From the NCBI RefSeq assembly GCF_029919115.1, contig NZ_CP123990.1, positions 124,001-188,000 of the forward strand: a stretch of 64,000 nucleotides of DNA, in the 5' to 3' direction. The notes beneath the pieces are model-generated. The model was not told where the DNA came from and searched no databases. It saw nothing but the letters and a program-made list of their open reading frames with translations. The translations under genes and the position numbers were made by a program. Positions 3,970 through 23,340 of the stretch are shown here, in pieces (position 1 is the stretch's first letter; every line of letters starts with the position of its first letter). The stretch comes from Variovorax paradoxus. GTDB lineage: Bacteria > Pseudomonadota > Gammaproteobacteria > Burkholderiales > Burkholderiaceae_C.

Positions 3970-4566
3970 ATGGCGATCTTCTTCAGACCGCGCGGCTGGC
4001 GCTTGCGCGCTTTCACCCCCTGGCTCTGTGCAACAGCCACGGCCGTGCTGCTGGCCGGTTGCGCGCAACTCGCCGCGCCGCCCTACGCAGCCGACTACGA
4101 GGCGCTCGACCGGCTCGAAGCCACGCGCCCCGGCATGGTGGCCGTGGCGAAAGTGCAGCCGAGCGACCCCGGCGACAACATCAACAGCTTGAGCCTGCGC
4201 CGCGCGAAACTGCTTTCGCCCAGCGGCACCTTTGCGCAATACCTGGAAGACGCGCTGATGCGCGACCTGGGAGAAATATCGGCGTACGACCCCAAGGCCC
4301 CGACCCGCATCGCGGCGCGAATACTGGTCAATGAACTCGACCTTGGCGTGATCAACGGCACGGGCCGCATGGACGTGGAGGTGGTGGTAACGCGCGCCAG
4401 CACGCAGCGGCTGCGCAAGACCTACCGCGGCGAAATCGCCTTCGATTCGAGCTACGCGAACATCGTGGCCGTGCCCGCCGGGCAGGCCGCCTACCCGAGG
4501 CTGGTGCGCGCGCTTTTGCGGCAGATGTATGCCGACCCGCAATTCATCGCGGCCATTGCGCCGTAG
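3970..4566 (+). CDS. Putative lipoprotein, cassette gene A (copy 1)
   Basis: This is a 198-residue protein with an N-terminal hydrophobic segment ending in the lipobox LLAGC (cysteine near residue 31), so it should be an anchored periplasmic lipoprotein. The mature part starts AQLAAPPYAADYEALDRL and contains LLSPSGTFAQYLEDALMRDL and a C-terminal VPAGQAAYPRLVRALLRQ helix. I do not recognise a named family. The protein at 5293-5862 is a clear paralog with the same motifs in the same order. The next gene starts 19 bases downstream, so the two are probably co-transcribed. Function is unknown; a role in envelope maintenance is only a guess. Confidence 0.82.
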   Translation: MAIFFRPRGWRLRAFTPWLCATATAVLLAGCAQLAAPPYAADYEALDRLEATRPGMVAVAKVQPSDPGDNINSLSLRRAKLLSPSGTFAQYLEDALMRDLGEISAYDPKAPTRIAARILVNELDLGVINGTGRMDVEVVVTRASTQRLRKTYRGEIAFDSSYANIVAVPAGQAAYPRLVRALLRQMYADPQFIAAIAP

Positions 4567-4585
4567 AACCGGAGAGAGCCGCACC

Positions 4586-5182
4586 ATGACGTTCGCTTTT
4601 TCTCCGGCCGCACGCCTGTGCACCGCCACTGCGCTCGCGGCCTTGCTGGCCGCCTGCTCCCATCCGATCACCATGATCACCGAGACCGCGCCGCCGCGAT
4701 CGACGGCCCATCTCATCCCGAAGAAAGTGGCCTATGTGATGACCGACGGCCAGCGCGACCAGCAGGTGACAAGCCCCGGCGGCAGCGGCGACCGCGTGAG
4801 CTACTACCCCTACCGCGATCTCGAAAAGTCGATTCGAGATGCACTGCGCGCGGTGTACCGGGACGTGATCGTGCTGCGCACCGCGGGCGATGCAAAGGCC
4901 AACGAGGCGGCGGGCGTGTCGCTGGTATTCACGCCGCAGATCAAGACCGATTCGAGCTCGTCCTCATGGATCACCTGGCCGCCCACGTCGTTCACGGCCG
5001 AGGTGAGTTGCGTGGTGAGCGACACCGCGGGCGCCGAGGTCACGCGCGTGCGCGCGGTGGGCAACGGCATGGCGGATTTCGGCGAGTTCAACGGCGACTA
5101 TGGCCTTGCCGCCCGACGTGCGGCAAAGCAGATGACTTCGCAGCTCAGCAGCGAGATCCGGCGGAACGAGAAGCTGCGTTGA
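4586..5182 (+). CDS. Putative lipoprotein, cassette gene B (copy 1)
   Basis: This is a 198-residue protein with a signal peptide and lipobox LLAAC (cysteine near residue 23), followed by SHPITMITETAPP. Conserved blocks shared with its paralog at 5889-6482 are LIPKKVAYVMTD, GDRVSYYPYRDLEKSIRDAL, VFTPQIKTDS, and a C-terminal LSSEIRRNEKLR. The ATG at 4586 follows a gagag purine tract at a suitable distance. It lies directly after gene A of the same cassette, suggesting a lipoprotein pair that works together. No family name or function can be given. Confidence 0.82.
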   Translation: MTFAFSPAARLCTATALAALLAACSHPITMITETAPPRSTAHLIPKKVAYVMTDGQRDQQVTSPGGSGDRVSYYPYRDLEKSIRDALRAVYRDVIVLRTAGDAKANEAAGVSLVFTPQIKTDSSSSSWITWPPTSFTAEVSCVVSDTAGAEVTRVRAVGNGMADFGEFNGDYGLAARRAAKQMTSQLSSEIRRNEKLR

Positions 5183-5292: not shown

Positions 5293-5862
5293 GTGACAGT
5301 GACTCGCATGCATGGATTTGCCTTCTGCGCCTTGGCCATCCTGGCCACAGGGTGTGCGCAATTGAAGGCCCCGCCCTATGCGGCGGACTATGAAGCCCTT
5401 GACCACCTCAAGGCAACCAAGCCTGCCGCCGTGGCGGTAGTGAAAGTTGAGCCGACCGATCCGAACGACGCGGTGAACAATCTTTCACTGCGCGGCGCGC
5501 GCCTGGTTTCTCCTAGCGGCACATTCGCCAAGTACCTCGAAGACGCTCTAATCAGCGACCTCAAGGAAGTATCGGCGTACGACGCGAAATCGCGCACGCG
5601 AATCGACGCACGCATCCTCAGCAACGAGATCAGCGTCGGGAACATCGTCACCGGAACCGGTGTGATGGAGGTGCAGATCGAGGTCACGCGCGAGGGCGTG
5701 CAGCGACTCAAGAAAACCTACAAGGCGAACACCAGCTTCGAATCGAGCTTCGCAGGCATCGTGGCCATCCCGGCAGGACAAGCCGCCTACTCGGATCTCG
5801 TGCGCGCGCTGCTGCGGCAGGTGTATGCCGATCCGCAGTTTGCTACCGCCCTTGCTTCCTAA
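5293..5862 (+). CDS. Putative lipoprotein, cassette gene A (copy 2)
   Basis: This 189-residue lipoprotein is a paralog of the protein at 3970-4566. Both share GCAQL directly after the lipobox, then APPYAADYEALD, LVSPSGTFAKYLEDAL and VPAGQAAY/IPAGQAAY near the end. The start is GTG 5293, chosen because a strong aggggggag ribosome site ends about five bases upstream; a downstream ATG at 5308 would lack one. A 110-base gap separates it from copy 1 of gene B and probably holds its own promoter. Copy 2 appears slightly less GC-rich than copy 1 by eye. Function is unknown. Confidence 0.82.
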   Translation: MTVTRMHGFAFCALAILATGCAQLKAPPYAADYEALDHLKATKPAAVAVVKVEPTDPNDAVNNLSLRGARLVSPSGTFAKYLEDALISDLKEVSAYDAKSRTRIDARILSNEISVGNIVTGTGVMEVQIEVTREGVQRLKKTYKANTSFESSFAGIVAIPAGQAAYSDLVRALLRQVYADPQFATALAS

Positions 5863-5888: not shown

Positions 5889-6482
5889 ATGTCCCTCGTT
5901 TCCAGAATCCTTCACGCCGCCACGGCGTTCGCTGTCGTGGCCGTGCTTGCAGGCTGCGCGCATCCTATAAACGTTGGCACCGACACCTCGCCGCCGCGCG
6001 TGGAAGCCAACCTGATCCAGAAGAAGGTGGCCTACACCATGACCGACGCGCAACGGGCTTTGCAGGCAGTGACGCCAGGCGGCGGCGGCGACCGGATCAG
6101 CTACTACCCGTACCGAGATCTGGAGAAGTCGATCCGCGATGCGCTACGCGCGGTCTACCAGGACGTGGTTGTCCTTAAGTCCACTGCGGATGTCGGCGCT
6201 GTCCAAGCGTCGGGCGCCTCTCTCGTGTTCACTCCCGAGATCAAGACCGACTCGGGCTCGCCGTCGCCTTTCACCTGGCCGCCCACATACTTCACGACCG
6301 AGGTGTCGTGTGTCGTAACCGATCCTTCAGGCGCCGAGATCACCCGCGTCAAGGCGTCGGGCCGAGGCGAAGCGGAGTTCAGCGAGTTCAAGGGCGAGTT
6401 CGGCCTTTCCGCCAAGCGCGCCGCAACCAAGGTGGCCACCGAACTCAGCAGCGAGATTGCCAAAAACGAAAAATTGCGCTGA
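5889..6482 (+). CDS. Putative lipoprotein, cassette gene B (copy 2)
   Basis: This 197-residue lipoprotein is a paralog of the protein at 4586-5182. It has a signal peptide ending in LAGC followed by AHPINVGTDTSPP, then LIQKKVAYTMTD, GDRISYYPYRDLEKSIRDAL, VFTPEIKTDSG and the same LSSEIAKNEKLR tail. A ggagaagaaa ribosome site precedes ATG 5889. It follows gene A of its cassette by 26 bases and is followed by a strong bidirectional terminator at 6506-6538. The near-identical C-terminal helix in both copies suggests a conserved contact, possibly with the gene A partner; this is inference. Confidence 0.82.
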   Translation: MSLVSRILHAATAFAVVAVLAGCAHPINVGTDTSPPRVEANLIQKKVAYTMTDAQRALQAVTPGGGGDRISYYPYRDLEKSIRDALRAVYQDVVVLKSTADVGAVQASGASLVFTPEIKTDSGSPSPFTWPPTYFTTEVSCVVTDPSGAEITRVKASGRGEAEFSEFKGEFGLSAKRAATKVATELSSEIAKNEKLR

Positions 6483-9867: not shown

Positions 9868-10257
9868 ATGCACGGGCTGCACCTCACCGCCGATCTCCAC
9901 GACTGCCAATGCGCAATGCAATGGCTCACCGACAAGGAGGCGCTCGGCGCCGTTTGCCTGAAGGCCGTCACGGCCGCCGGGCTGCAGCCGGTGGGCAAAC
10001 TGGTGCACGGGTTTCCGGCCACTCCGCAGGGGCCGGGCGGCGTCACGGCCACGGTGCTGCTGGCCGAATCGCACCTGTGCATCCACACCTGGCCAGAGCA
10101 GCGCGGCGCCACGCTCGACGTGTATGTGTGCAACTTCGGCGCCGACCATTCGGCCAAGGCCCATGCGCTGATGGAATGCCTGGTGGCGCTGTTCCAACCC
10201 GGCCTCAGCGAACGCAACGAGCTCGTACGCGGCCAGGTCGGCCAGGTGGCCGCTTGA
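9868..10257 (+). CDS. speD: S-adenosylmethionine decarboxylase proenzyme, prokaryotic class
   Basis: This 129-residue protein supplies decarboxylated SAM as aminopropyl donor for spermidine synthesis. The self-cleavage site is in AESHLCIHTWPE, between Glu67 and Ser68, and would generate the pyruvoyl cofactor from Ser68. Cys88 in DVYVCNFG fits the catalytic proton donor. The ATG at 9868 was chosen over a TTG at 9835 because the family begins close to this point. It is followed closely by the MurU-like gene and pepP on the same strand. A membrane spermidine synthase is encoded at 16447-18006, so the product of this gene could feed that enzyme. Confidence 0.93.
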   Translation: MHGLHLTADLHDCQCAMQWLTDKEALGAVCLKAVTAAGLQPVGKLVHGFPATPQGPGGVTATVLLAESHLCIHTWPEQRGATLDVYVCNFGADHSAKAHALMECLVALFQPGLSERNELVRGQVGQVAA

Positions 10258-13337: not shown

Positions 13338-14690
13338 CTACTTGGCCTGCAGCAGCGCGCCCGCCTCAAGCAGCACCAGCTCGTTGTCGTCCGCCTTGTT
13401 GGGCTCGCGGCTGCTGGAGAACGGCAGGTTGTTGTCGTTGCCCACCACGATGTGCGTGGCGTCGACCACATCGACGTTCTCGATGGTGAAGAACGGGAAC
13501 TTGAGCACACCCTCGTCCAGCGGCTTGCGCGCGAGCTTGGCTGGGTCGGCGATGTTCAGCAGGTCGATGTAGCCGATCTTGCGCACTGCGCCGCCCACGT
13601 TGGCGTCGTTCAGTTCGACCTTGTAGACGCGCTTGAACCTGGCGATGTCGTGGAAGCAGTCGGTGCGCTTCTGGCCTTCGGGGCAGGCCTTGTCGCTCGT
13701 GCCTTCGCCGTTGTCGCGCTCGATGATGAGGCCCGTGGTGCCGTCGATCATGTTGAAGTCGCCGATGGCGTGGCCGTTGGTTTCGAGCACGTATTTCCAG
13801 TGGCGGCCGGTCCACTTTTCCGAAGCCACGTCGAACTCCAGCACGCGCAGCGCTTCCTTTCCGTCCTGCTTCTCGTAGTCCTTCGCGTCGGCGTTCCACA
13901 CCGGGCCTTCCAGCAGCGCATAGAGTTTGCTGCCGTCTTTCGACGCCGCCATGCCCTCGAAGCCCTTGGAGCGCTTGGTCTGGAAATCGACCGCGCCGCG
14001 TGGCGCGCCCGGCGTCGTCACTGCAGGATGGTCAGGCGAGCGCACGGCCTTGCCGTCCACCAGCGTATCGAACACCGCGAGCACCTTGCCCTTGAGGTCG
14101 GCCTTGATCAGGAAAGGGCCGAACTCATCGCCGATCCACGTCGCGCCACCCGCGAACTGGAAACTCTCGGGGTCGAAGTCGGAGCCCGTCAGGTAGCGCT
14201 GCTTCGTGCCTTCGTGGACGATGCGAAAAGGCACCTTCTTGTCGGGGTCGTGCAGAAAGACGGTTTCGAGGCGGTTGAACTTGCCGCTCTTGAAGTCCAC
14301 CTTGTAGTGGTTCAGGTAGAGCATGAAGTCGGGCGAGTTGGCCTTGGCACCGGCGCCGTTGTCCGTAAGGATCCAGAACGAGCCATCGTCCATCTTCTTG
14401 ATGCCCGAATGGCCTTGCAGCGGCTGGCCCTTGAAGGGCACCGACACGCCGGTGCCGCGCCCGCCCGAGAGACCCTCTACTGTGCCCAGCGCCTCGACGC
14501 GCTTGCCCGAGGTGAACTTGCCGCTCACCTGCAGATCGGCCGGCGCATCCTTGGGCGCGGCCACGAAGCTCTGCGCGGGCAGCACGGCATGGCCGGCGAG
14601 CGTGGCGGGAAAGGCCGCCTGTGCGGCGGCGTTGCCGCAAGCAAATGCGGCGGCAAGGGCGATGAAGGAGAGGGGAGCGAGGCGCGTCAT
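13338..14690 (-). CDS. Esterase-like activity of phytase family protein, secreted
   Basis: This is a 450-residue protein with a signal peptide (MTRLAPLSFIALAAAFACGNAAAQA) and a beta-propeller-like body. Blocks such as GLSGGRGTG, FWILTDNGAGAKANSPDF and IGDEFGPFLIKADLKGKVL match the phytase-like domain (Pfam 13449 type) found in periplasmic phosphoesterases. The start ATG 14690 was preferred to an upstream alternative at 14759 because it begins the signal peptide and is preceded by a purine-rich region. It follows the polyamine operon on the same strand, with a gap of about 140 bases, so it may or may not be part of that transcript. Substrate is unknown. Confidence 0.82.
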   Translation of the reverse strand: MTRLAPLSFIALAAAFACGNAAAQAAFPATLAGHAVLPAQSFVAAPKDAPADLQVSGKFTSGKRVEALGTVEGLSGGRGTGVSVPFKGQPLQGHSGIKKMDDGSFWILTDNGAGAKANSPDFMLYLNHYKVDFKSGKFNRLETVFLHDPDKKVPFRIVHEGTKQRYLTGSDFDPESFQFAGGATWIGDEFGPFLIKADLKGKVLAVFDTLVDGKAVRSPDHPAVTTPGAPRGAVDFQTKRSKGFEGMAASKDGSKLYALLEGPVWNADAKDYEKQDGKEALRVLEFDVASEKWTGRHWKYVLETNGHAIGDFNMIDGTTGLIIERDNGEGTSDKACPEGQKRTDCFHDIARFKRVYKVELNDANVGGAVRKIGYIDLLNIADPAKLARKPLDEGVLKFPFFTIENVDVVDATHIVVGNDNNLPFSSSREPNKADDNELVLLEAGALLQAK

Positions 14691-14828
14691 GAGAGCAAGC
14701 AGAGAGGTTTCAGTCGAAACGCGAGACCATGCCGATTGCGCGTGACGCGGCCGTGACATGCAACGCTCAGAAATGGAGCGGGGGCTTGTTCACCATTGCG
14801 CGGAACACGGCAACCGCGACAAAGATCT

Positions 14829-16439
14829 TCATGTGGCGACCGTGCCCGCAACGTGCCCGCGCGTGAAGGCTTCTTCAAAAATCGAATAGCCCGACCAGTC
14901 CGCATGCGCGAAGGAGAGCCGGCCGGCAGAAATGGGGCCGCGGTGCGCGGGCCCTAGCCGTGCCAGCAAGCCCGGTGTGGGAATGGCCATGGCGTGCCCA
15001 TAGCGGGTGATCTCGACGCGCGTTGCCAGCTGCGGCAGGTCTGGGTGCGGCACCGAGAGTTCGGCAAGCAGATCGTCGCGCCAGCCGGTCCACGGGCGCT
15101 CCTGCAGCACGCTACGCCCGTCGGGCGCGTCATAGCGGCTGGGGCCAAGCGGCCGGTACCAGCTGATGACGGTGCCGCGCGGCGTCGGATCGAGCGTCTG
15201 GTGGCGGGCGTCGACGTAGCCCAGGCCTCGCGTGCCGTAGACCACGTTGTCCCAGCTCGGTGCGGCGCCAAGACGGTCGGCCAACGGGCCGCTCAGGTGC
15301 ACGTTGGCAACCAGCCATGGCGCATGGCGCACATGCGCTGCAGCATTGCTCAGTACCTCTGGCGCGTTCTCGACGATGCGGGCGGCAATGAACACCGGCA
15401 GGGCGACGATGCAGCGCTCGGCTTGCCAGCGCACCAGCGATTTCGTTTCGGCGTCCCATGCGTCGACCTCCACGCCGCTGCGCAGATCGGCAATGCGCGT
15501 GACGACCTGCCCCGTACGCAGCCGGTCACCAAGGGGCTCTGCGAGCCGCTTCGTGAGCCAGCCGTTGCCCTCGGGCCAGGTGAGTACGCCGTCGCGCTCC
15601 AGGTTCGAATCGGCAACGCTGCCCGATGAACCCGGCGCGTGAAACCCGTGCCGGCTGGCGAAGTAATGGATGCCGGCCCAAGCCGAAACATGGGCGATGC
15701 CGGCGCCATAGTCGTCGCGGCAACAGTAGTCGAGATACCACCTGAGTTGCGGGTCGCCGAAGCCTTCGCTGTCGAGCCAGCGCTCGAACGGAACGGCGTC
15801 GAGCGCGAGCAGTTCGGGGGTTGTTGCTACCTTGAGTGTGGGGATGGCGAAATGCTCGGCGTGCTGCAGTGCCTCGATTCGCTGCGCGAACTTGCGGTAC
15901 TGGGCATGGGTGCTTTCGCCGACGTCATGAACGGGCAAGAGGCCCTCTTGCCACTCGCCGCGAAAGAACAGGCGCTCCTGGGGGCTGTGGCAAAGATGGC
16001 GCTCGTCATATTCCCAGCGGCCCGACACGCGCCGGCGCAGGCCCAGCTCTTCGAGCAGGTCTTGCACTTCGCGGGCGTTGTCGTCGGGCACCGGCAGGTA
16101 ATGTGCGCCTAGCGGACACGCAATGCCGTTGACCATGCCGCCGCGCGAATTGCCGCCGGCCGTGTCTTCGAGCTCGAGCAGGACGAAGTCTTCGACGCCC
16201 GAAAGCCGCAAGGCGCGCGCCGCCGCGAGGCCTGCGACCCCGCCTCCGGCAATGACCACGCGCGTGCGCTTCACGGTTGCGGGTGCCTGGCTCTTGAGCG
16301 CGCCATCCCGCATGGCGTGGCCCCGCGCCATGTCGATGCCGGTGAAGCCGCCTTCGATGATTGGCAGCGGCGCCTCGCAGCCGGCGAGCGCCAATGCGCC
16401 TGCCGCACCTGCCACACCCAGAAAATCGCGCCGCTGCAT
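14829..16439 (-). CDS. Tat-exported lipoprotein, FAD-dependent amine oxidase family
   Basis: This 536-residue flavoprotein begins MQRRDFLGVAGAAGALALAGC, which combines a twin-arginine motif (RRDFL) with a lipobox (LAGC). It is therefore predicted to be exported folded and then lipid-anchored. The FAD-binding Rossmann motif VVIAGGGVAGLAAARALRLSG is at about residues 61-81, followed by ELEDTAGGNSRGG. The C-terminal part, FEEAFTRGHVAGTV, is the second FAD contact seen in monoamine and polyamine oxidases. It is the last gene of the five-gene operon, seven bases after the membrane spermidine synthase. Oxidation of a polyamine-type substrate is a reasonable inference; no substrate is proven. Confidence 0.85.
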   Translation of the reverse strand: MQRRDFLGVAGAAGALALAGCEAPLPIIEGGFTGIDMARGHAMRDGALKSQAPATVKRTRVVIAGGGVAGLAAARALRLSGVEDFVLLELEDTAGGNSRGGMVNGIACPLGAHYLPVPDDNAREVQDLLEELGLRRRVSGRWEYDERHLCHSPQERLFFRGEWQEGLLPVHDVGESTHAQYRKFAQRIEALQHAEHFAIPTLKVATTPELLALDAVPFERWLDSEGFGDPQLRWYLDYCCRDDYGAGIAHVSAWAGIHYFASRHGFHAPGSSGSVADSNLERDGVLTWPEGNGWLTKRLAEPLGDRLRTGQVVTRIADLRSGVEVDAWDAETKSLVRWQAERCIVALPVFIAARIVENAPEVLSNAAAHVRHAPWLVANVHLSGPLADRLGAAPSWDNVVYGTRGLGYVDARHQTLDPTPRGTVISWYRPLGPSRYDAPDGRSVLQERPWTGWRDDLLAELSVPHPDLPQLATRVEITRYGHAMAIPTPGLLARLGPAHRGPISAGRLSFAHADWSGYSIFEEAFTRGHVAGTVAT

Positions 16440-16446
16440 GTCGGGG

Positions 16447-18006
16447 CTAGTGCGTCATGACCTTGCCCCACTCCTGCTCGTAAGTGGTGACAAGGGTCTG
16501 GTTCGACAGGCGGTTGACCTCGGCCGGCACACGCGCCATGTCGAGCGGAAAGTCGAACATCAACGGCAATGTCGAAGGTGCCAGAAAACGCAGTCCGGAG
16601 GGCAGCGCATCGGGCATGCGGTACGGGCGGCGGCTGGCAATGATGTAGCCCCACTCGCCGAAGCTCGGTACATGCGCGTGATACGGCGTGGCCTTCAGAC
16701 CGACCGACTCGATGGTGGTTGCCACGGTCCAGTAGCTCTTGCGCGCCACCAGCGGAGAGGTAGTCTGGATCACCGCATAGCCGCTCGCGGAAAGGCGCTT
16801 TTCGAGCAGCGAATAGAAGCTGTTGGTGTAGAGCTTGCCAATGGCAAAGTTGGTGGGGTCGGGAAAGTCGACCACGATGACGTCGAACACGTCTCCTGGC
16901 TGCTGCAGCCACTGGAAGGCATCTGTGTTGACGACCTTCACCTTGGGTGAAGACAGCGAATGGCCGTTGAGTGCCGCGAGCGTTTCATGCTCGGTGAAGA
17001 GCCGGGTCATGTTCGGGTCGAGCTCCACCAGCGTGACCGATTCGACCGAGGGGTATTTCAGGATCTCGCGTACCGCCATGCCGTCGCCGCCGCCGAGCAC
17101 CGCCACCTTCTTCGGCGCGCCATGGGCGGCCATCGCCGGATGAACGAGCGCCTCGTGGTAGCGGTATTCATCGCGCTCCGCAAACTGCAGGTTGCCATTG
17201 AGGAAAAGACGATGGCCGAGTTGCCCGCGCGTGACCACGATGCGCTGGTAAGGCGAAGTGGCGCTGAACACGATGCGGTCCTGGTAGAACTTGTCTTCGG
17301 CCAGGGTGGTGATGTGGTCGGCCCACACAAAGGCGCCGAGCAGCGCGGCGAGCGCAAGAAAGCAAGCCAGCGCATGCGCACCGATGCGGCGCAGCTCATG
17401 GCGAAACAGCCAAAGTGCCCATACGGCCACGGCCGCGTTCATGAAGCCGAACAGGAGCCCCGTGCGAATCATGCCGAGCTGCGGCACCAGGATGAGCGGA
17501 AAGGCGACCGACACCGCGAGCGCGCCGAGATAGTCGAACGTGAGCACCTGCGACACGAGGTTCTTGAGCTGGATGTTGCGCTTGAGGATGCGCATCACGA
17601 GCGGTATCTCGAGCCCCACCAGCGTGCCCACCACCATCACAAGGCCGTAGAGCAACAGGCGGAACGCGCCGGGCACGTACGCATTCGCCAGGAAAAGAAT
17701 GGCCGGCAGCGCGCCGCCGACGAGCGCGACGAGCAGCTCGATGCGAAGGAAGTGCGCGGGCAGTTGCCGCTCGAAGTAGCGCGAGAGCCACGAGCCGACG
17801 CCCATGGCGAACAGGTAGGTGCCGATGATGGTGCTGAACTGCAGCACCGAATCGCCGAGCAGGTAGGAGCTCAGCGCTGCGGCGGTCAGTTCGTAGACCA
17901 GGCCGCAGGCGGCCACCACGAACACGCTGGCGAGCAGCGCAATTTCAACGGGCTGCGGCCCCTTGGCCGGCCGCGCCGGGCTGGCAGGAGCATCCACGGA
18001 AGCCAA
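16447..18006 (-). CDS. Membrane-bound polyamine aminopropyltransferase (spermidine synthase-like)
   Basis: This 519-residue protein has two parts. Residues 20-230 form about seven transmembrane helices. Residues 240-519 are a spermidine synthase domain with NGNLQFAERDEYRYHE (271-285 or so), the SAM-binding loop GGGDG (305-309), the acidic ELDPNM (residues 329-333) and VVDFPDP (378-384). The motifs match SpeE-type transferases using decarboxylated SAM, whose source here would be speD at 9868-10257. It follows the DUF350 gene by seven bases and precedes the amine oxidase by seven, so it is firmly inside the operon. The natural acceptor may be a polyamine or a membrane component; only the enzyme class is supported by the sequence. 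Confidence 0.9.
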   Translation of the reverse strand: MASVDAPASPARPAKGPQPVEIALLASVFVVAACGLVYELTAAALSSYLLGDSVLQFSTIIGTYLFAMGVGSWLSRYFERQLPAHFLRIELLVALVGGALPAILFLANAYVPGAFRLLLYGLVMVVGTLVGLEIPLVMRILKRNIQLKNLVSQVLTFDYLGALAVSVAFPLILVPQLGMIRTGLLFGFMNAAVAVWALWLFRHELRRIGAHALACFLALAALLGAFVWADHITTLAEDKFYQDRIVFSATSPYQRIVVTRGQLGHRLFLNGNLQFAERDEYRYHEALVHPAMAAHGAPKKVAVLGGGDGMAVREILKYPSVESVTLVELDPNMTRLFTEHETLAALNGHSLSSPKVKVVNTDAFQWLQQPGDVFDVIVVDFPDPTNFAIGKLYTNSFYSLLEKRLSASGYAVIQTTSPLVARKSYWTVATTIESVGLKATPYHAHVPSFGEWGYIIASRRPYRMPDALPSGLRFLAPSTLPLMFDFPLDMARVPAEVNRLSNQTLVTTYEQEWGKVMTH

Positions 18007-18013
18007 CGAAGCG

Positions 18014-18232
18014 CTAATGAATTGCCGCCGCCACGATGACGCAGATGCCCAGGCTCATCGCCGCGACCACCAGCCCCAGCGCGACGTTCTGCTTCTCGAC
18101 GATCTCGCCCCACAGGTCATAAGGGGTGAGCTTGTCGATGATCAGGAAACAGAGCCAGAAGATCAGCACGCCAAGCAGCGCATACACGAGCGATCCGAGG
18201 ACCACGCCCGGTTTCAGCCATTCAAATCCCAT
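18014..18232 (-). CDS. DUF350 small membrane protein (YjfL-like half)
   Basis: This is a 72-residue protein consisting of two transmembrane helices (residues 8-31 and 48-71) joined by a short loop IDKLTPYDLWGEIVEKQN. The WxEI-xxxxNxAL pattern in this loop is the DUF350 signature. YjfL proteins usually have two such units; this one has a single unit. DUF350 genes recur near polyamine enzymes, SPFH and DUF4178 proteins. The gene lies 60 bases after the DUF4178 gene and seven bases before the spermidine synthase. The molecular role is unknown. Confidence 0.88.
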   Translation of the reverse strand: MGFEWLKPGVVLGSLVYALLGVLIFWLCFLIIDKLTPYDLWGEIVEKQNVALGLVVAAMSLGICVIVAAAIH

Positions 18233-18292
18233 GGGGACCTCCAGTCGTAGTAGCAGTAGTGAGTGTCATCGACGCGAACCTGGTTGCGTTCT

Positions 18293-19771
18293 TCATTTAT
18301 GGCCGCCTCCGCTCGAGTAGCCGCCGTACGAGCCGCCCGAACTGCGCGATCCGCTGGACGAGCTGCTGCAGGTGCTCAGGATGATGAGCAAAACGATGAC
18401 GACGACCGCAATGAGGATGATCGTGCCGCAGCCCAGGCCCGATGCAGCGCTGACGGGCAGCGCGTCGCCGCGCACGAACATGTCCTTCTTGTCGTCGAGC
18501 TTGAACGCAGCGGACACCGCGCCGCTGTCGAGCTTGCTGCCCGAAGACCAGGTCAGCTCGTTGGCCGAACGCTCCATCGACAGCAGCGAATTGCCGCTGG
18601 CGAAGTCGCGGTTGAAGGTTTTCTGCCCTCGCTCGACCTGCCAGTAGAACTCGCCCGCCACATAGGTGGTCTCGGCGTTGTAGGCGTATTGCTGCGTGAA
18701 GCGTTTGCCAAGGTAGGTGGCGCTGCTGCCGTTCTCGGCCATCACGGGCGCGCCGGTGGTCGGCTTGACCATGCTCCAGCCGTCTTCGGCATCGACAAGG
18801 AAGCTGAAGCCGCGCTTCTTGTTGTACAGCAGGTACTCGCTCCAGCCGAAGTGCTCGTCGTCGCCGGGCTCGGTGCCCATGCGGTGCTGGAAGCCCACCA
18901 CCTGCCACTGCGCACCCTGCAGCTGGCCCACGCTGCCGATGGCGATGAGCGGACGAACGGGTTCGTTCTGCTCGGCGTGCTTCAGCTCCCCGCCAATGCC
19001 GTGCGACAGGTCGATGATGCTGTTGCACGAGCCGCAGGTAATGCTCTTGCTGTCGGCCAGGTTGACGGTAACGGGCGCACCGCAATTGGGGCAGTTGAAG
19101 GCGCGGCCTTTTTCGTCCTTGGCGGACTCGTCGCGCAGGCCGGTGAGCTGCAAGTCTTCGAGCTGTACGGAGCGGCCCAGGTACGCGCTGGGCGGGTGCG
19201 TGCTGTAGTCGAGGCTGAGCACCAGCCCGTTACCGCTGCGCAGTTCGACCATGGGGAATGAACGGCCCAGTTCCGGCAGATGCGACAGCTCGCCCTGGGC
19301 GGAAAGCAGCGCCACCTGTTCGTTCGACGAAACGGTGTAGCTCTGGCCGTTGAACGCGCTGGTCGCGCCCACGCGCAGGTCGGTTGGCGGCGGCGGGTCG
19401 CGCTGCAGCTCGAAGGGCAACGCAAAGACATAGGCGCCGTTGTCCTCGCTGAGGATGCCGGTGCGGTCGCCGTCGAGCGCGGCAATCCATTCGGTCCAGC
19501 GGCCGCCGGGGTTGCTGTATTGCAGCCGCCCGACGATGGTGAACGGCTTGTCCTGGATGCGGCCCGCCGCAAACAGCTGCAGCGGGCTGAAATCGTCGAA
19601 CAGTTCGGCCATCTTGCCGATGCGCGCGAGCGTGTCGCCCTGGCGCACGACCGTGCTCTGGCAGTACGGGCACACCGCATGCGTCGATTGCGCGGAACGG
19701 AATTCGACCGGTGCGCCGCAGCCGGGGCAGGGCGCACGGTAGGCGCGCTGGGCGCCTGGTTGCTCAGCCAT
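18293..19771 (-). CDS. DUF4178 domain protein with zinc-ribbon motifs and C-terminal membrane helix
   Basis: This is a 492-residue protein. An N-terminal treble-clef pair, CPGCG and CPYC (residues 15-37), precedes a first DUF4178 unit with PFTIVGRLQYSNPGGRWTEW. A second pair, CPNCG and CGSC, precedes another DUF4178-like unit containing QWQVVGFQHRMG and GWSEYLLYN. A transmembrane helix (GCGTIILIAVVVIVLLIIL) follows near residue 450, and the tail is Ser/Gly-rich with a short GYSSGGGHK end. The layout suggests a membrane-anchored protein with its zinc-binding and DUF4178 part on one side. It starts nine bases after the SPFH gene stop. Function is unknown; it belongs to the same operon as polyamine and SPFH genes. 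Confidence 0.9.
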   Translation of the reverse strand: MAEQPGAQRAYRAPCPGCGAPVEFRSAQSTHAVCPYCQSTVVRQGDTLARIGKMAELFDDFSPLQLFAAGRIQDKPFTIVGRLQYSNPGGRWTEWIAALDGDRTGILSEDNGAYVFALPFELQRDPPPPTDLRVGATSAFNGQSYTVSSNEQVALLSAQGELSHLPELGRSFPMVELRSGNGLVLSLDYSTHPPSAYLGRSVQLEDLQLTGLRDESAKDEKGRAFNCPNCGAPVTVNLADSKSITCGSCNSIIDLSHGIGGELKHAEQNEPVRPLIAIGSVGQLQGAQWQVVGFQHRMGTEPGDDEHFGWSEYLLYNKKRGFSFLVDAEDGWSMVKPTTGAPVMAENGSSATYLGKRFTQQYAYNAETTYVAGEFYWQVERGQKTFNRDFASGNSLLSMERSANELTWSSGSKLDSGAVSAAFKLDDKKDMFVRGDALPVSAASGLGCGTIILIAVVVIVLLIILSTCSSSSSGSRSSGGSYGGYSSGGGHK

Positions 19772-19780
19772 TGCCGGTGC

Positions 19781-20830
19781 TTAGACCAGCTTCTTGAGCA
19801 GCTCCGCCTTCTTGGCGTCGAACTCTTCCTGCGTGAGGATGCCCTTGGCCTTGAGCTCGCCGAGTTTCTCGAGCGTGGTCATGACATCGTTCGGGCTCAC
19901 CACGGCAACGGCGGGCTGCTGCTGCGTTGCCGCAGCCTGGGCAGCAGCATTCGGGCTCAGGCCCTGTGCGAGGTTTTGCGCCAGCACCTGGCCGAGCGCC
20001 ACGCCGGCACCCAGGCCCATGGCGTCGCCCGCAATGCCGCCGCCGTTGCCGGCACCCTCGGCAAACTTGGGAATGGCCTGCGCCGTCTGGTACTGCATGA
20101 ACTTGCCCATGTCGTTGCCGACCATGCCCATGCCGATCTTCTGGTCGAGGATCTTCTGCAGCTCTTCGGGCAGCGAGACGTTCTGGACCGTGATGTTCTC
20201 GAGCTTGATGCCGATCTTCTCGAACTCGGGCACCAATTGCGCGGCCAGCGCCTGCGCAAACTGGATCTGGTTGGCCGCAAGGTCGAGAAAGGGCACGCCG
20301 CTCGAGGCAATGGCGTTGCTGATGTTCTGCAGCACCAGGCCGCGCAGCTGGCCGTCGAGGTCGGCCGCGCTGTAGATGTCGCGCGTGCCGGAAATCTCGG
20401 TGTGGAACAGCTTGGCGTCGCCAATGCGGAACGAGTAGTTGCCGAAGGCGCGAAGGCGCACGGCGCCGAAGTCCTTGTCGCGGATGGTGATGGGCTGCGG
20501 CGTGCCCCACTTCTGGTCGACCTGCTGGCGCGTGCTGAAGAAGTACACGTCACTCTTGAAGGGAGATTCGAAGAGCTTGTCCCAGTTCTTGAGATACGTG
20601 AGCACGGGCAGGGTCTGCGTCGTGAGCTTGTACATGCCGGGGCCGAACACGTCGGCCACCTGGCCTTCGTTGACGAACACGGCCACCTGGGACTCGCGCA
20701 CGGTGAGCGAGGCGCCGTTCTGGATTTCCATCTCGGCCATGGGGAAACGCCAGGCCAGCGTGCCATCGCCAGTCTCGGTCCACTGGATGATGTCGATGAA
20801 CTGTTTCTTGATGAAATCCATCAGGGCCAT
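19781..20830 (-). CDS. SPFH domain protein with C-terminal SHOCT domain
   Basis: This 349-residue protein heads the operon. It begins MALMDFIKKQFIDIIQWTE and contains an SPFH-type middle with NEGQVADVFGPGMYKL and AFGNYSFRIGDAKLFHTEISG. A Gly/Ala/Gln-rich linker leads to a C-terminal SHOCT helix pair, LEKLGELKAKGILTQEEFDAKKAELL. SPFH proteins scaffold membrane microdomains; this type has no clear transmembrane segment and may attach to the membrane face. The start ATG 20830 is preferred over one 15 codons upstream because gaggagcg precedes it. It diverges from maeB with 167 bases between. Role in the membrane polyamine system is inferred from the operon. Confidence 0.9.
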   Translation of the reverse strand: MALMDFIKKQFIDIIQWTETGDGTLAWRFPMAEMEIQNGASLTVRESQVAVFVNEGQVADVFGPGMYKLTTQTLPVLTYLKNWDKLFESPFKSDVYFFSTRQQVDQKWGTPQPITIRDKDFGAVRLRAFGNYSFRIGDAKLFHTEISGTRDIYSAADLDGQLRGLVLQNISNAIASSGVPFLDLAANQIQFAQALAAQLVPEFEKIGIKLENITVQNVSLPEELQKILDQKIGMGMVGNDMGKFMQYQTAQAIPKFAEGAGNGGGIAGDAMGLGAGVALGQVLAQNLAQGLSPNAAAQAAATQQQPAVAVVSPNDVMTTLEKLGELKAKGILTQEEFDAKKAELLKKLV

Positions 20831-20997
20831 GGCCGCTCCTCGTCGAGTTTTTTTGCAGACTGCGCATATTGCCACATCGGCTTGACAGGCCGTGTTGCTT
20901 TCGGCATGCCTGGTACCTCGCCATGCGGCCTATGGCGTCATGGGCCGAGGTCTACAATCGGCGCCCCCAGAAGAAGCGCCACCAGGAGCAACGGCAC

Positions 20998-23340
<2,343 letters not shown>

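Follow-up and report, generated by a model that had tools for sequence, protein, structure and literature searches.

The five adjacent genes at positions 14829-20830 on the minus strand of a 64,000-nucleotide stretch of the Variovorax paradoxus genome (the window; C1:124001-188000 of a 5.81 Mb single-contig genome) raise the question of why a membrane-fused aminopropyltransferase (mSpeE) and a flavoenzyme with export signals (AO) should be encoded together with an SPFH protein and two further membrane proteins. The explanation favoured here, with roughly an even chance of being correct, is that they specify a membrane-anchored polyamine module, in which mSpeE makes spermidine or a similar amine at a membrane site organised by the SPFH protein and AO oxidises it outside. 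The open reading frame (ORF) calls, together with Pfam and NCBIfam, verified the original prediction of a five-gene operon on a single strand with gaps of 7-60 bases; the intergenic gaps derived from the ORF coordinates are 9, 60, 7 and 7 bases.

The first gene in the direction of transcription (19781..20830) encodes an SPFH/Band-7 protein of 349 residues with a C-terminal SHOCT domain (PF13421, 262 bits; PF09851, 38.9 bits; both above the Pfam cut-off), in which hydropathy identified no transmembrane (TM) segment (none above Kyte-Doolittle 1.6 over 19 residues). It is followed by a 492-residue protein (18293..19771) in which two stretches match PF13785, indicating two DUF4178 domains, and which carries two CxxC...CxxC zinc ribbons (both present in 132 of 137 homologues) and one C-terminal TM segment by hydropathy. 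The third gene (18014..18232) encodes a DUF350 protein of 72 residues with two TM segments by hydropathy, matching PF03994 with 53.4 bits over profile positions 7-65 of 133 only, which is half of the usual profile. The genes for mSpeE (16447..18006) and AO (14829..16439) complete the run. No sigma-70 promoter was found in 14600-21100, and the ten terminator-like sites in this interval, where 4.2 would be expected, all lie away from the end of the AO gene.

mSpeE (519 residues; TTG start codon, with an in-frame GTG alternative) consists of a seven-TM, MFS-like domain fused to an aminopropyltransferase domain. The latter matches Spermine_synth (PF01564) with 128 bits, and the whole protein matches NF002956 (PRK03612) with 692 bits against a cut-off of 472. 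A match to the fused MFS/spermidine synthase model NF037959 (47.6 bits over residues 32-415, cut-off 40) also lies above its cut-off, but NF002956 is the closer model and mSpeE has seven helices only. These seven are visible in the AlphaFold model, in agreement with the original prediction of about seven membrane helices. Asp279, Glu280, His284, Asp308, Asp330, Asp362, Asp380 and Asp383 are identical in 45 of 45 sequences and presumably belong to the decarboxylated S-adenosylmethionine (AdoMet) and amine sites of known SpeE structures; as judged from the sequence, the aminopropyltransferase residues are intact. The best PDB matches are the Thermus thermophilus enzyme and then plant thermospermine synthase, in lists filled by the transferase domain. 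The available portions of two polyamine papers (PMC11107197 and PMC10407285) contain nothing on membrane-fused synthases.

The original prediction had overlooked speD, which lies convergent with the operon at 9868..10257 on the plus strand and encodes the sole AdoMet decarboxylase of the genome (PF02675, 86 bits; TIGR03330, 76.0 bits against a cut-off of 75.65 for the translation of 9871-10257). A phytase-like esterase gene, a LysR gene and an ORF read by eye as aminopeptidase P separate it from the AO gene. Since mSpeE is also the only aminopropyltransferase of the genome above Pfam's cut-off, mSpeE with SpeD is the one evident way in which it could convert a diamine to spermidine. The sole PF02784 protein of the genome is LysA, and a single large OKR-type decarboxylase falls below all curated cut-offs. 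Predicted speD and speE genes are noted in the accessible part of a Variovorax genome paper (PMC10946135). In the available record for Caenimonas aquaedulcis the measured polyamines are putrescine (61.01%), cadaverine (33.86%) and spermidine (5.13%), and spermidine is listed, in an excerpt, for Lampropedia cohaerens; by analogy, these reports favour spermidine as the product. Another Caenimonas strain (L124) carries both the operon and speD.

AO (536 residues) matches Amino_oxidase (PF01593, 61 bits) and contains the Rossmann motif for flavin adenine dinucleotide (FAD). Its N-terminus combines a twin arginine with the lipobox LAGC (Cys21). AO just reaches the cut-off of the twin-arginine translocation (Tat) model TIGR01409 (16.7 bits for both), and its PF10518 score of 15.8 lies below the cut-off of 22.7. 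All 48 family sequences and 21 of 27 in a wider set have the lipobox cysteine; of 130 loci (L037-L176, some genomes counted twice), 116 have the twin arginine and 115 show both signals. The export predicted earlier from these two motifs is thus borne out at the level of conservation, and a cytoplasmic location is not indicated. The best Foldseek matches of the predicted model are putrescine oxidases, and the fold aligns with spermidine dehydrogenase (SpdH) over AO residues 30..535, a range that appears to include the N-terminal heme segment of SpdH. His41 and His482 are invariant (48/48 and 27/27) and may correspond to the SpdH heme ligands His54 and His562, a match estimated from the ends of the alignment range only.

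Conservation was surveyed in 120 genomes of the family, one per genus. mSpeE was found in 66, DUF4178 in 64, AO in 64 and AdoMet decarboxylase in 68. At the cut-offs used, AO is present in 64 of the 66 genera with mSpeE and in none of the 54 others, DUF4178 is likewise absent from all 54, and SpeD occurs in 62 of the 66 and six of the 54; the Fisher tests of co-occurrence treat the genera, which are related, as independent. The two mSpeE genera in which AO was not detected (G121 and G153) are represented by genomes that are 65% and 74% complete, and the locus of G121 (L091) shows an AO match at a contig end. DUF4178 is missing from G203 and G214. Sixty of the 66 mSpeE loci were retrieved, the window being another and G153, G176, G196, G207 and G214 being left out. 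Of the 60, 52 carry all five genes collinear and on one strand, some neighbours being several kilobases apart. The incomplete loci lack AO in the stretch (L041 and L044), SPFH and DUF4178 (L045 and L055), SPFH, DUF4178 and DUF350 (L069 and L092) or SPFH (L070), or have neither DUF4178 nor DUF350 and an SPFH gene on the opposite strand (L076); some of these eight stretches stop at contig ends. SpeD lies inside 27 of the 60 stretches, in two of them (L089 and L093) on the same strand. In a separate scan (best 80 of 587) 62 of the 80 named loci hold all five genes with order and strand preserved; these loci and the 60 family loci come partly from the same genomes and the counts are not additive. 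The co-occurrence in other genomes that the original prediction called for is therefore observed.

The association extends beyond the family. Among 398 genomes of the phylum, mSpeE was found in 44 (E <= 1e-60) and AO in 13 (E <= 1e-40; scoring was confined to the top three candidates of each genome), all 13 within the 44. AO is present in six of 40 non-family loci, all of which except L214 also have SPFH, and SPFH occurs without AO in L181 and L215. In L180 and L182, SPFH, two DUF4178 genes, DUF350, mSpeE, AO and SpeD lie on one strand; in L177-L179 the same families are split into two divergent runs, and DUF350 matches weakly in L178 and not at all in L177 and L179. In the SPFH-less loci L187, L193, L197, L202 and L207, some ORFs, unscored, resemble PspA and its partners by eye, recalling the second operon group in the accessible text of Ravi et al. 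(2024). An AO search of 72,556 plasmid records gave seven matches, four of which were examined. On plasmid p1 of Novosphingobium sp. ES2-1 (L236), SPFH, two DUF4178 genes, a small ORF, DUF350, mSpeE, AO and speD form one run in which the last four overlap; the small ORF, at 5999-6145 between DUF4178 and DUF350, is a hypothetical gene. The same families are present on N. resinovorum pSA1, on a plasmid of Gemmatirosa kalamazoonensis (another phylum) and on a Burkholderia cenocepacia replicon, in the last with a weak DUF350. The four replicons are 0.6-3.2 Mb in size, with pSA1 typed as conjugative and the other three as non-mobilizable; mobility of these sets is possible.

In the favoured polyamine module, SpeD would provide decarboxylated AdoMet, from which mSpeE would move an aminopropyl group onto a diamine at the membrane, spermidine being the most likely product. 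The SPFH-SHOCT, DUF4178 and DUF350 proteins may build or regulate a membrane assembly that holds mSpeE. AO would be exported by the Tat system, anchored by a lipid and oxidise this polyamine on the periplasmic side; it would probably be an SpdH-type dehydrogenase that passes electrons to the respiratory chain and not to oxygen. With flow presumably directed from mSpeE to AO, the module as a whole would control how much polyamine is present at the membrane.

Several observations weigh against this reading. None of the operon's members has a known activity. The speD gene lies outside the operon, about 4.6 kb past the AO gene, and a second, weak PF01564 match is present at C1:712379 (20.9 bits; PRK04457-like, with 181 bits where that model's cut-off is 304). 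The species with recorded spermidine differ from the present strain. The lysine of classical amine oxidases is replaced in AO, the putrescine oxidase lysine aligning with Asn379; this position is Asn in 47 and His in one of the 48 family sequences, and Asn in 24, Ser in two and Ala in one of the wider 27. The earlier description of AO as a flavin amine oxidase is consequently not supported in so far as it implies a classical amine oxidase, and its assignment as an ordinary polyamine oxidase is weakened: AO shares the fold, the FAD motif and PF01593 with the putrescine oxidase/monoamine oxidase family, but differs in this residue and in its Tat and lipobox signals. SpdH was not among the best 60 of 119 matches of a 48-row AO profile, nor was it found with a 24-row profile of the C-terminal region; the N-terminal piece as query gave no matches and the C-terminal piece one chance match, to glycerol kinase. 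Membership of AO in SpdH by sequence was rejected because all of these searches failed, so that the likeness to SpdH of Pseudomonas aeruginosa (PDB entries 7d9f-7d9j) is one of fold, as seen in the predicted model. If all seven helices of mSpeE span the membrane, the loop charge bias of its membrane domain would put the transferase domain on the outside, in conflict with the proposal that the polyamine group is made at the inner face. Finally, six genera (G117, G123, G128, G138, G185 and G208) possess, in addition to mSpeE, a soluble SpeE that adjoins their only SpeD or is fused with it; five of the six keep the five genes in order, some with inserted cargo, and in G138 AO is on another contig. 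A plain spermidine synthase would be superfluous there. In two family genera (L220 and L223), SpeD and soluble SpeE are encoded in one ORF.

The retention of the set in these six genera, together with the fusion of the transferase to a membrane domain, also suits a different substrate: mSpeE could aminopropylate a membrane-held aminophospholipid or protein, altering the charge of the envelope, with AO removing or oxidising the group on the outer face. The PspA-linked relatives suggest a membrane role, and the available text of Ravi et al. (PMC11237479) names aminopropylation of other substrates as possible. However, the small-amine active-site residues examined in mSpeE are kept, and among the matches listed the other 60 mSpeE genera have no second SpeE beside SpeD, so that spermidine synthesis would there be left without a clear enzyme. 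Nor was a bacterial aminopropyl lipid found in the titles and first abstract lines of the 12 papers listed, of 24, that pair aminopropylation with phosphatidylethanolamine. A membrane-held substrate is possible and, on this evidence, unlikely.

The sole SpeD and the sole transferase above the cut-off would equally suit mSpeE as the housekeeping spermidine synthase of the family, the other genes being independent membrane proteins on a common promoter. The DUF350-mSpeE junction has a gap of more than 500 bases in 20 of 77 named loci and accepts foreign genes, so that the two halves of the operon need not form one transcript. Related cargo is found at this junction in four family genera (L038, L043, L082 and L090), including a type III methylase and restriction enzyme in L038, and in L083 a type I restriction enzyme is encoded there. 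A purely housekeeping role is made rather improbable by the six genera that keep mSpeE beside a soluble SpeE, by the absence of AO and DUF4178 from genera that lack mSpeE, by the confinement of AO to mSpeE genomes across the phylum and by the persistence of the set on plasmids and in another phylum.

The loss of the lysine raises the question of whether AO acts on amines at all. It could be a flavoenzyme with predicted export on the desaturase/protoporphyrinogen-oxidase side of the fold, with a non-amine substrate; the rank of putrescine oxidases in the Foldseek search and the strict linkage of AO to a polyamine gene argue for amines and leave this proposal with a low probability. A further scheme is a reversible modification of the envelope, in which mSpeE would aminopropylate a membrane-bound amine, possibly with a periplasmic catalytic domain as suggested by the charge bias. 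On that side, too, a FAD/heme dehydrogenase with a lipid anchor would remove the group and deliver electrons to respiration; this scheme is considered quite doubtful. A hybrid route, in which mSpeE lengthens a triamine in thermospermine fashion and AO trims the product to norspermidine or a similar amine, would fit the rank of plant thermospermine synthase among the PDB matches and, according to the available text of PMC11531321, works in Escherichia coli with algal and lycophyte enzymes, but is very improbable since outside the six genera no other triamine-supplying enzyme was seen and the synthase and oxidase are expected on opposite sides of the membrane.

The window operon, for which the membrane-anchored polyamine module is favoured, belongs to a described kind. 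The accessible text of Ravi et al. (2024, mSystems, PMC11237479) already contains the clustering of DUF350, DUF4178 and spermidine synthase that the original prediction mentioned, as well as a suggested connection with membrane stress, and it briefly describes an operon type with Band-7/SHOCT, AdoMet decarboxylase and polyamine oxidase. As there described, this variant resembles the window in the fusion of Band-7 to SHOCT, in DUF350, in a nearby AdoMet decarboxylase and in a polyamine-oxidase-like protein. It has two TM segments between Band-7 and SHOCT, however, whereas none is detected by hydropathy here, and its AdoMet decarboxylase and oxidase are both in the operon, whereas in the window speD is 4.6 kb away on the opposite strand (L236 has a single run). 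Its account, in the portion available, gives no analysis of oxidase export signals or active site and no mention of a seven-TM synthase. By sequence, the window operon appears close to this variant without being a strict member. It shares the mSpeE, DUF350 and DUF4178 families with the PspA-CesT/Tir operon of the same source, which in the available description contains a 7TM-spermidine synthase, DUF350, DUF4178 and a lipoprotein; here, SPFH-SHOCT replaces PspA-CesT/Tir, AO is added and DUF350 has 72 residues in place of the described eight-TM form. Pfam identified neither PspA nor CesT/Tir among the five operon genes; no PspA search of the genome was made. Elsewhere in the window, two lipoprotein-like ORFs (4529-5182 and 5889-6482, plus strand), mutually similar by eye, flank a third (5293-5862).

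In the literature found, no function was shown for DUF4178, for DUF350 beside DUF4178 or for a membrane aminopropyltransferase. The present analysis adds the strict co-occurrence, the sets on plasmids that include speD, the argument from a sole route, the export signals of AO, its missing lysine combined with an SpdH-like fold, and the topology conflict in mSpeE. Such operons connect membrane scaffolds, and in relatives the PspA envelope-stress proteins, with the metabolism of polyamines. A plasmid-borne version with its own speD and a predicted exported oxidase with candidate cofactor residues opens the system to single-gene experiments. Should the product remain at the membrane, the operon would represent a new bacterial means of tuning envelope charge.
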